Shown: positions 980 through 3,579 of the stretch, piece after piece | Layout of the letters: the number at the start of each line of letters is the position of its first letter | Position numbering within the stretch: the first letter of the stretch is position 1 | NCBI GenBank assembly: GCA_021325675.1 | Contig: JAJTCM010000003.1 | Location: forward strand, 186,001-250,000 | Length of the DNA stretch: 64,000 nt | Direction of reading: 5' to 3' | DNA from: Crocinitomicaceae bacterium | Lineage (GTDB): Bacteria > Bacteroidota > Bacteroidia > Flavobacteriales_D > Crocinitomicaceae | The notes under the pieces: generated by a model | Told to the model about the DNA's origin: nothing | What the model saw: only the letters and a program-made list of their open reading frames with translations | Database searches by the model: none | Translations under genes and position numbers: made by a program

Positions 980-1327
980 TTATTCCGATTTCACAATCCG
1001 GCGTGTTTCCACGACGTTGCTGTTTTCTTTGATCACGTAAAAATAAACGCCTTTTTTGAGCTCGGACAAATCCAGCTGCGTGCTCTTGTCGTTTAACGGG
1101 ATATGAACCGTGCGGACAACTTCGCCTAAAAGCGTGCAAATCTCAATTTTATCGCAGCTTCCGTGATTAATTGTAATCTTTCCTTTAAACGGGTTCGGAA
1201 AAGCTTTTGGCTCGTCCCCGCTTTCAAGACAGGTATAGTCTTCACTTGCTGCAAAAACCAGGTCCTTCGCCGAAACAGAAGGGGCAAAAGCCAGGAGGAG
1301 GGCAAAGAGAGTAATGTATCTGCTCAT
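980..1327 (-). CDS. Small secreted protein made almost only of a T9SS type A sorting domain
   Basis: The 115 residues begin with a clear signal peptide (residues 1-20, ending SVSA). After about 20 linker residues a T9SS C-terminal domain follows: AFPNPFKGKITI near residue 42, then the typical ICTLLGEVVRTV, LDLSELKKGVYFYVI and a basic RRIVKSE end. Such domains direct export by the type IX system, after which they are normally cleaved off or lipid-anchored. There is almost no cargo before the domain, which is unusual. It may be a remnant of a larger protein or a genuine mini-cargo. It stands alone between the rpsF promoter and the sigma-factor gene. Confidence 0.75.
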   Translation of the reverse strand: MSRYITLFALLLAFAPSVSAKDLVFAASEDYTCLESGDEPKAFPNPFKGKITINHGSCDKIEICTLLGEVVRTVHIPLNDKSTQLDLSELKKGVYFYVIKENSNVVETRRIVKSE

Positions 1328-1526
1328 AGTGCGGGGTTATTTATAACAAATATACACCTTTTTTTGAAAAAAGCAAATTTCCGGGCAACTATTTGATTTT
1401 TCGCGGGTAATTAATGAAAGTTTACCGGTTATGCACGAAAATAAGCTCAACAGAAAAGTAGAAAGTTAACCCGGACCAGGTTTTCCGGCACTTATAATTG
1501 TATACATTTGATCCAGATTTAAAGGT

Positions 1527-2072
1527 GTGATTACCGAAGCAGTTTTACAGGATTTCCGTTCAGGAAAAAAAGAAGCTTACGACCTCGTTTATAAGTCGTA
1601 CGCTCCCGGTATGTTCGGAATCTGCCTGCGCTACACACGATGCAAAGATGATGCGCAGGACGTTTTGCAGGAAAGCTTCATCAAAGTATACATCAACCGG
1701 GAGAAGTTCCTGTCAGGCCAGTCAATCGGCGCCTGGATCAAAACCATCACCATTAACACGGCTTTAACATACATCAAACAAAATTACAGGCTGCAGCTGA
1801 CCGACAATGAGCTGAAACTGGATGAAATGCATTTTGACAGCGAGGAAACACCCGATTATGCGTCGATGCAGCAAAAACTGCTGGCAATCCTCAACCGTCT
1901 GCCGGATGGCTACCGCACTGTTTTCAACCTCTATACCGTTGACAACCTGACCCATAAAGAAATTGCAGAATACCTCGATATATCTGAAAATACATCGAAA
2001 ACCCAATTATTCAAAGCCAAAAAGATGATCCAGGCAATCATCGAACAAGAAAAAATCAGCTATGGAACATGA
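1527..2072 (+). CDS. ECF-type RNA polymerase sigma factor
   Basis: 181 residues. The sigma-70 region 2 is at about residues 20-85 (GICLRYTRCKDDAQDVLQES, then FIKVYINREKF). The region 4 helix-turn-helix is at about 115-175 (LPDGYRTVFNLYTVDNLTHK, then EIAEYLDISENTSKTQLFKA). The start is a GTG at 1527 preceded by AAAGG; no better in-frame ATG precedes region 2. The end overlaps the next gene by 11 bases, so the two are probably translationally coupled. By the usual logic of ECF pairs the downstream membrane protein would be the regulator; that is inference. No two-element promoter was recognised upstream, so autoregulation cannot be judged. Confidence 0.9.
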   Translation: MITEAVLQDFRSGKKEAYDLVYKSYAPGMFGICLRYTRCKDDAQDVLQESFIKVYINREKFLSGQSIGAWIKTITINTALTYIKQNYRLQLTDNELKLDEMHFDSEETPDYASMQQKLLAILNRLPDGYRTVFNLYTVDNLTHKEIAEYLDISENTSKTQLFKAKKMIQAIIEQEKISYGT

Positions 2073-3579
2073 AAACGACATAGACAACTTGTTTCAAAAA
2101 AGTTTTGAGAGCTTCGAAGTTCTTCCCCCGGATGAGCTTAAACAGAAGATTGACGAACAATTGAATTTCAAGGAAAAGAAGCGCCGTTTCTTCGGATTAC
2201 CTTCGGTACTGCCGTTGGCGGCCTGGCTTTTAGGGGGAATTTCTCTTATGGGAGGTGTCATCCTCGCTATTCTTTTGCTTTATACGCCGGGAAGCAAACA
2301 CCATGATAAGTTCCTTGATAAGAATGGAAAATTAGCTACGCTGCCTGCGGCGGTGAGAACAGAAAAGGGAAAACCGGATGAGAAGCAGAATGCAAGCGGG
2401 AAACAGAATGAGACCACCGCAGGCAGCACCGAAGGTAAACAGAGCGGGGAACAGAGTGGGAAACAGGATGAAAATGAGGAACTGAAATCAAATAAGAATA
2501 CGCAGTTAAGCTCTTCTAGCAGCAATTTCAATCAAAGCGAAACACAAGATTCTTCAAACAAAAAAAGCGCTGGTAAGCAGAGAAATCGCAAAAAGAAACA
2601 TAAATCGGGAAACCCGGAGAACACTTTGAGTCATAAGGAGAAGGAAAAGGAGAACGAGAAGGAGAAGGAACGTGAGAATGAGGGAGGAAAACAAAATGAG
2701 GAAAAGCAGCCGGAACAGGATCCGAACAAGCCTGACAAGGAAGATGCTGCTGCGAATACTGCCGATTCACTGACTGCTGCGAAAGAAGCTGCTGCACTCG
2801 CTAAAAAAGATGACAGCTCGGCAAATGACAGCCTGGCGGAAAATTACGTAAAACCGGAACGCAAAAAACCGGAGCCGATTCCCCTGTCGCCTTTCCTCGT
2901 CGGCGTTCAGTTCGGGCTTACGAAAGCGGTCAACAGCTCGGATGAAACCGTTTCTTTCGGAGAGCATAATCCTTTGTATATCAATTTTGACGCCAGCTAC
3001 AGGCGCCGGAAAATCGGTATTGCGAGCGGCTTCAACTACTTCAGTACCGGCGAAAGCGTTAGTTATACGTACACCCAGTCTGATTCTACCCTCGTAACAA
3101 CGTATGAATACATTACGGACGATACCATTCAATATATCTATGACACGAACCAAATGATCATCGACTCGATTTATCATACGATAATTGTGGATTCCACAGC
3201 CGTTGAGGGCTACCAGGTGAACACGAACAGCTTTACGGAAAGCAGCGTTTACCGCGTTTCCTATTTTTCCATTCCTTTTATGCTCTCTTACCAGCAGCGG
3301 CTTTTCTCCAAATTTTACCTGGATTTAATGGCGGGCGGGGTAATTTCTTATCAAAAGCTGAGGTTTACGGAAAACAATAATCCCGCGAATGACAACGTGA
3401 CCCTCAGCGAGCTGGGCTTCAGGCTCTGCGTAAAAACCAACCTGCGCTACCAGTTCAGTAAATTCGGGGTGAGTATCAACAGTAACTTCAATTACGACCT
3501 GAAACCGGTGCAATACCTGCAAACAAGCCGTAAACGGCAGGCCCTGGACTTCGGTGTGGGAATCTGGTATAATTTCTAG
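2062..3579 (+). CDS. Putative anti-sigma factor fused to an outer-membrane beta-barrel by a long charged linker
   Basis: 505 residues with four parts. Residues 1-47 are a charged cytoplasm-like segment. One strongly hydrophobic helix spans about 48-74, with no cleavable signal peptide. A low-complexity tract rich in Lys, Glu, Gln, Asn and Ser spans about 75-272. From about 275 to the end, alternating aromatic strands finish in GVGIWYNF, a C-terminal Phe typical of outer-membrane barrels (porin/OMP_b-brl_2-like). The gene overlaps the ECF sigma gene by 11 bases. I infer a protein anchored in the inner membrane, crossing the periplasm, with its barrel in the outer membrane, able to link surface state to the sigma factor. 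The N-terminus has no zinc-binding anti-sigma motif that I can see, so the anti-sigma role rests on context. Confidence 0.7.
   Translation: MEHENDIDNLFQKSFESFEVLPPDELKQKIDEQLNFKEKKRRFFGLPSVLPLAAWLLGGISLMGGVILAILLLYTPGSKHHDKFLDKNGKLATLPAAVRTEKGKPDEKQNASGKQNETTAGSTEGKQSGEQSGKQDENEELKSNKNTQLSSSSSNFNQSETQDSSNKKSAGKQRNRKKKHKSGNPENTLSHKEKEKENEKEKERENEGGKQNEEKQPEQDPNKPDKEDAAANTADSLTAAKEAAALAKKDDSSANDSLAENYVKPERKKPEPIPLSPFLVGVQFGLTKAVNSSDETVSFGEHNPLYINFDASYRRRKIGIASGFNYFSTGESVSYTYTQSDSTLVTTYEYITDDTIQYIYDTNQMIIDSIYHTIIVDSTAVEGYQVNTNSFTESSVYRVSYFSIPFMLSYQQRLFSKFYLDLMAGGVISYQKLRFTENNNPANDNVTLSELGFRLCVKTNLRYQFSKFGVSINSNFNYDLKPVQYLQTSRKRQALDFGVGIWYNF

Follow-up and report, generated by a model that had tools for sequence, protein, structure and literature searches.

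An ECF sigma factor and its predicted envelope-spanning anti-sigma partner in a Crocinitomicaceae genome

Can a single protein chain link the outer membrane to an ECF sigma factor in the cytoplasm? The question is raised by two overlapping genes in the window, the 64,000-nucleotide stretch of Crocinitomicaceae DNA that was analysed (all positions are those of the window unless another locus is named). A sequence-only reading had proposed that the second gene encodes a chain with a cytoplasmic-like N-terminus, one membrane helix, a long linker and a C-terminal barrel, through which the sigma factor encoded by the first might be controlled. In the FecI-FecR-FecA system an ECF sigma factor is also under outer-membrane control, through two distinct proteins: an anti-sigma in the inner membrane and a TonB-dependent receptor.

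The sigma gene and its 505-residue partner

The first gene (1527..2072, + strand, GTG start) encodes an ECF sigma factor of 181 amino acids, with Pfam matches to Sigma70_r2 (E 4.5e-14) and Sigma70_r4_2 (E 2.5e-16) and an N-terminus that is alignable with those of six relatives. In NCBIfam, the superfamily model TIGR02937 was the only one of the 25 matches listed that was not below its cut-off. The second gene (2062..3579, + strand, ATG at 2062 and stop at 3579) encodes a predicted Dma-type envelope-spanning anti-sigma protein of 505 amino acids and overlaps the sigma gene by 11 bases (2062-2072), exactly where the sequence-only reading had placed the pair. A small secreted-looking protein is encoded divergently from this operon (980-1327, minus strand); it carries a T9SS sorting tail (Por_Secre_tail, E 5.8e-13).

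Residues 1-47 of the partner (2062..2202, + strand) form a short cytoplasmic, putative anti-sigma domain of two predicted helices, which is the best-conserved part of the chain and whose profile is common to other classes of partner. Every 19-mer in residues 1-45 has a hydropathy of -0.45 or below; the N-terminus therefore lacks a signal-peptide core, in keeping with the earlier claim that a cleavable signal peptide is absent. The hydropathy maximum of the chain (2.35 in a 19-residue window) lies near residue 55, within a predicted inner-membrane helix at residues 50-73 (2209..2280, + strand) that is indicated by both hydropathy and AlphaFold2 (AF2); this is the single hydrophobic helix behind a cytoplasmic-like N-terminus that had been described. 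It is flanked by five Lys or Arg residues in the preceding 15 positions and three in the following 15, and a conserved motif lies ahead of it in the charged N-terminus. The linker that follows (residues 74-270; 2281..2871, + strand) is disordered, charged and predicted to be periplasmic. As had been reported, it is long and of low complexity: about 197 residues, rich in Lys, Glu and Ser, with residues 76-270 comprising 17% K, 13% E, 11% S and 10% N and with 14 of these 195 positions occupied by F, I, L, V, W, Y, M or C.

The AF2 model of the chain, built from a 26-row alignment (the window protein and 25 relatives), has a pLDDT of 63.4 and a pTM of 0.43 overall. Helices are placed at residues 6-16 and 24-34, both at moderate confidence, and at 50-73; over the N-terminal domain and membrane helix the pLDDT by block is 44-77, i.e. 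low to moderate confidence, and it falls below 50 at residues 37-50, 75-86 and 89-262. The C-terminal part is modelled with more confidence. Residues 271-505 (2872..3576, + strand) are predicted to fold as an 8-stranded outer-membrane beta-barrel that ends in WYNF, with strands spanning residues 278 to 504 and a mean pLDDT of at least 80 in 20 of the 24 ten-residue blocks from residue 271 onward. The matches listed by Foldseek for this model are outer-membrane barrels, the best being the protease Pla (E 4.4e-8), with OmpA at 1.8e-7 and 4.5e-7 and NspA at 5.8e-6. VIA-align of about residues 271-505 gave NspA at Z 17.0 (rmsd 2.6, 151 aligned), OmpW at 16.6 and OmpA entries at 15.8-18.5, these lying within the top 12 rows. 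Structure prediction and both comparisons therefore agree with the proposed barrel ending in Phe, here covering the last 235 residues or so.

Pfam and NCBIfam returned only low-complexity matches to the 505-residue chain, all below cut-off, and Pfam gave no barrel family at E values up to 1, so the barrel call rests on the AF2 model and the relatives. A FecR/TonB-receptor relay was considered and rejected, as neither family was found in the chain by Pfam at E up to 1. The earlier statement that the topology differs from that relay is in line with this result: both systems have an ECF sigma factor apparently controlled from the outer membrane, but at the window a single chain would take the place of two proteins.

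Although barrels of the OmpA/NspA/OmpW type share the 8-stranded fold of residues 271-505, they are without a tethered anti-sigma, and by comparison with them the window protein has a very long hairpin between strands 3 and 4 (residues 332-398; 3055..3255, + strand). AF2 places these strands at residues 318-360 and 366-413, lengths of 43 and 48 residues respectively, and by the usual barrel rule we take the hairpin to be extracellular. Its tip, near residues 361-369, has a recurrent D-[ST]...[IV]-D-[ST] pattern; in alignment A3, D361 is found in 17 of 24 rows and D368 in 17 of the 20 rows that have a residue there.

Recurrence of the pair among relatives

The 505-residue chain diverges fast. 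With the window's own genome set aside, a search with the anti-sigma chain found a match at E 0.001 in eight of 58 related genomes, six near full length and two limited to part of the barrel. At E 1e-20 a profile of the sigma factor gave hits in 289 of 299 genomes from the order (own genome included), many of them probably to other ECF factors. Relatives of the locus were gathered through the sigma factor. The named-genome set comprised the best 80 of 215 relatives by sigma alignment, with labels that include Fluviicola, Lishizhenia, Crocinitomix, Taishania, Saprospiraceae, Cytophagaceae and uncultured Bacteroidales, among others. Four loci in which the contig ends before the partner were dropped (L058, L060, L091 and L098), and contig ends truncate some of the 76 that remain. 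By the rule applied, a same-strand ORF lies directly 3' of the sigma gene in all 76 usable loci; it overlaps the sigma gene in 52, and in 72 it either overlaps or starts within 12 bases. The pairing with a sigma gene thus recurs in homologous loci, one of the tests put forward when the locus was first described.

For comparison of the partners themselves, 123 proteins were collected from the named loci, 40 further loci, six other loci of the window's genome and the window, and removal of four duplicates left 119 distinct partners. The 40 further loci were high-scoring sigma matches, from which a handful close to contig ends and one containing a stop were omitted; the partner set as a whole was picked by sigma similarity and is not a random sample. 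Further sigma matches in the window's genome (L149-L159), some with partners that are FecR-like by eye, lie outside the 119, and L002, which has a stop in frame, was excluded from protein alignments. Classification of the 119 gave 63 barrel-type C-termini, 28 T9SS sorting domains and 28 others; as the last group includes cut chains and short-tailed barrel look-alikes (e.g. L046 and L051), 63 is a low count. By a hydropathy threshold, 105 of the 119 have a hydrophobic helix at residues 30-70, showing that the helix too is kept in homologues. Both a helix in this position and a barrel-type end were present in 57 of the 79 partners of at least 330 amino acids without a T9SS domain, compared with nine of the 252 control ORFs above the same length limit in these loci (shadow ORFs included); the pairing of helix and barrel exceeds chance.

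Conservation along the chain is uneven. The mean share of the top residue in the 26-row A3 alignment is 0.60 for N-terminal residues 6-34, 0.35-0.45 for the barrel strands, 0.37 for the hairpin tip, 0.33 for the membrane helix, 0.26 for the linker and 0.24 for the hairpin shaft. Linker lengths were assigned by a simple rule and are rough, with values of 5-8 residues in some barrel-type rows that we read as failures of the rule, so no minimum length is drawn from them.

Several individual loci merit mention. Within the window's genome, three additional proteins encoded next to sigma genes (L145, L146 and L147), each with a membrane helix, are possible paralogues of the window protein; their C-termini are barrel-like in L145 and L146 and uncertain in L147. 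The anti-sigma gene beside the nearest sigma relative (L002/L045, from a draft MAG) contains an internal stop codon, reflecting either a broken gene or an assembly error. Some genome labels look wrong: the sigma factors of L045 and L053, from MAGs labelled Chitinophaga pinensis and Chryseobacterium gleum, group with those of the Fluviicola or window type, as does that of L068 (CP034120.1, labelled Glaciecola amylolytica).

A trans-envelope reading and its alternatives

Proteins with this layout have been studied in gut Bacteroidales. Dma1 and Dma2 of Bacteroides thetaiotaomicron, for 'dual membrane-spanning anti-sigma', adjoin ECF sigma genes, the Dma kind is stated to be confined to Bacteroidota, and loss of Dma2 leads to extra vesiculation that depends on its sigma factor Das2 (PMC13088901). 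Four features of the kind have counterparts at the window: a single transmembrane helix behind a cytoplasmic N-terminus, a long intrinsically disordered tether and a C-terminal outer-membrane beta-barrel are each predicted for the 505-residue chain, and an ECF sigma gene lies alongside with its 11-base overlap, an arrangement that recurs in relatives. For the domain that would bind and inhibit the sigma factor, the window protein offers a conserved N-terminus with two predicted helices. The likeness drawn here is one of layout and gene order; the Dma proteins come from Bacteroides and the window protein from another Bacteroidota family. The Dma systems belong to the ECF21 sigma group and have vesicles and PULs as outputs.

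A second system, EcfO-Reo of Phocaeicola vulgatus and Bacteroides fragilis, likewise has the anti-sigma downstream of the sigma gene (PMC9308784, PMC13114119). Reo is said there to reach from the cytoplasm to the outer surface and to have a C-terminal barrel, a layout like that of the window protein; the pair has a regulon of nigD genes and an effect on O-antigen, and the likeness drawn here is again one of layout. According to PMC9308784, mutants in the EcfO partner switch on the EcfO regulon, exposure to the toxin BcpT raises the ecfO sigma gene 33-fold, and bacteroidetocin A binds and inhibits BamA; ecfO-reo are given as the most upregulated genes with bacteroidetocin A in PMC13114119.

Since, in these accounts of same-layout proteins, loss of the anti-sigma activates the sigma factor and envelope-acting toxins induce the pair, we favour a trans-envelope anti-sigma reading of the window. 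By architecture and gene order the pair is very probably a sigma/anti-sigma module of the Dma/Reo kind, here from Crocinitomicaceae, and the signalling role first suggested by the gene overlap gains backing, by analogy, from the genetics of the Bacteroides and Phocaeicola proteins (PMC13088901, PMC9308784, PMC13114119). The same topology having already been published for Dma and Reo, the window protein is the less novel; what it brings is a sensor design studied experimentally in gut Bacteroidales to a family of Flavobacteriales, with its conserved parts now given (N-terminal motif, tether, barrel, hairpin tip and promoter).

Location and signalling of the window protein are matters of prediction or analogy, and the following scheme is worded accordingly. 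The N-terminal helical domain would hold the sigma factor at the inner membrane, where the predicted helix would anchor the chain with its N-terminus inside; the disordered linker of about 197 residues would cross the periplasm, and the barrel, delivered by Sec and BAM, would sit in the outer membrane. With the barrel properly assembled the chain would be stable and the sigma factor off. The signal read is most likely outer-membrane integrity or barrel assembly: should either fail, the barrel would change in its state or assembly, and the chain would then be cut, or the N-terminal domain would release the sigma factor, which would transcribe its own operon together with a regulon. The long surface hairpin may in addition respond to an outside cue.

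The region upstream of the operon is consistent with its transcription by the sigma factor that it encodes. An ECF-type promoter-like site (1378..1418, + strand), defined by the 16-row alignment A8 and a pattern in relatives, lies directly ahead of the sigma gene and consists of GGCAAC (1384-1389), a 17-base T-rich spacer and GTAATT (1407-1412), with 115 bases from the promoter end to the sigma start. Of the 77 named loci having at least 300 nt upstream, 20 contain GGCAAC-N15-19-GTA in the 500 nt that precede the sigma gene, against a background of 0.0099 per 500 nt, i.e. less than one expected; the other 57 are without the pattern. Conservation of this site suggests autoregulation, and the sigma factor probably drives its own operon. 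Across the genome a strict promoter scan found the operon's own site only, which was also the only strong match to the promoter model and is itself a row of that model; a loose pattern gave six matches genome-wide versus eight in the backward control. With no strong second match, the regulon may equal the operon alone, or the model may be too narrow. The next match to the model is weak (L209; G000:C1:363014-363046, minus strand; E 0.18); the gene that starts 42 bases after it encodes a secreted-looking protein and is only a candidate regulon member. In nine of 12 relatives examined (L048, L049, L052, L055-L059 and L061) a small ORF, by eye lipoprotein-like and rich in Gly/Asn/Asp-Ser-Thr, lies just upstream of the sigma gene, and in six of them the promoter pattern is upstream of this ORF.

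The trans-envelope topology is also compatible with a variant in which the folded barrel acts as a surface sensor, binding an outside ligand or a surface lipoprotein through the hairpin and passing the signal down the tether by a pull or by exposure of a cut site. The length of strands 3 and 4 and the better conservation of the hairpin tip than of its shaft would suit this variant, as would the lipoprotein-like ORF beside the sigma gene in relatives; however, the tip is missing in five of the 26 A3 rows (L066-L069 and L071) and shortened in others, no lipoprotein-like ORF lies between promoter and sigma gene in the window, and a disordered tether should transmit force badly unless nearly taut. 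We regard it as possible but doubtful. Less probable still is that the chain is cut after export, leaving an ordinary membrane anti-sigma and a separate porin-like barrel with no molecule bridging the two. Long disordered linkers are easily cut and the whole chain is here a prediction, but the helix and the barrel-type end occur on one chain in 57 of the 79 long partners that lack a T9SS domain, which makes this an unlikely account. That the partner is simply an outer-membrane protein whose N-terminus is unusual, beside the sigma gene by chance, is most improbable: small barrels are common in Bacteroidota (PF13568 has five matches across this genome, the window gene not being one), but the charged, conserved, motif-bearing N-terminus ahead of helix 50-73 has no signal-peptide core and the sigma pairing recurs across the named loci.

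Partners that end in a T9SS sorting domain

In 28 of the 119 partners an anti-sigma-like N-terminus, helix and linker are followed by a type-B T9SS sorting domain in place of the barrel, the class being assigned by a home-made profile with eight seeds. Two are sigma partners from the window's own genome, L143:2980-3834 (G000 C9) and L144:2531-3817 (G000 C5), the latter with a weak type-B end, and eight are from named loci by the same profile (L079, L082, L087, L096, L100, L113, L122 and L123). The Pfam family CHU_C matched L143 at 3.7e-11, L096 at 3.2e-15, L079 at 2.8e-15, L082 at 9.7e-17, L100 at 7.2e-18, L113 at 4.9e-8, L122 at 3.3e-15 and L123 at 8.4e-8, and L144 at 0.0013, below cut-off. 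All 20 members of alignment A9 that were scanned reached E 0.001 for CHU_C, and 12 of these also have a PKD domain; L079, L122 and L123 reached it as well, L144 fell short of it, and L087, L188, L193 and L198 were outside the Pfam scan. With the NCBIfam T9SS type-B model, L082, L100, L122 and L096 pass the cut-off, L143 and L113 stay below it and L144 gives no match.

These proteins have a short hydrophilic start and a helix near residue 50, which falls at 30-70 in 27 of the 28; in the exception, L123, the start was probably set too far downstream. When the N-terminal profiles of this class and the barrel class were aligned by hhalign, the score was 52.5 (E 5.8e-12), the best of 30 column shuffles reaching 15.3. 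Alignment of the barrel class with a third set, mostly from Saprospiraceae, scored 39.6 (best of 30 shuffles 15.3). The profile pair A4-A6 scores 46.4, the shuffle controls covering the first two pairs. For L082, AF2 placed two short helices and a helix at 43-64, all at pLDDT below 50, then disorder to about residue 190 and strands at 194-268 and 300-362 with values mostly of 67-93.

Among the papers listed by full-text literature searches, none was on a T9SS-ended anti-sigma class, and we consider this class more novel, and potentially more important, than the window protein itself. One idea, which we put forward as a tentative proposal, is that Bacteroidota join one anti-sigma domain, inner-membrane helix and periplasmic tether to swappable ends, that each of these serves as client signal for a single outer-membrane export route (a barrel for BAM, a type-B domain for the T9SS), and that the sigma factor reports whether that route can still take a client. 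If this were true of the T9SS-ended relatives, several outer-membrane export machines would be watched by a single modular anti-sigma design. In a quick sigma tree of 118 rows, which has several long branches, five changes are required to account for the T9SS label; the well-supported branches force only one, so repeated swapping of ends is possible but not demonstrated. SprA is encoded in the window's genome (E 2.6e-153), so the machine for T9SS ends exists there.
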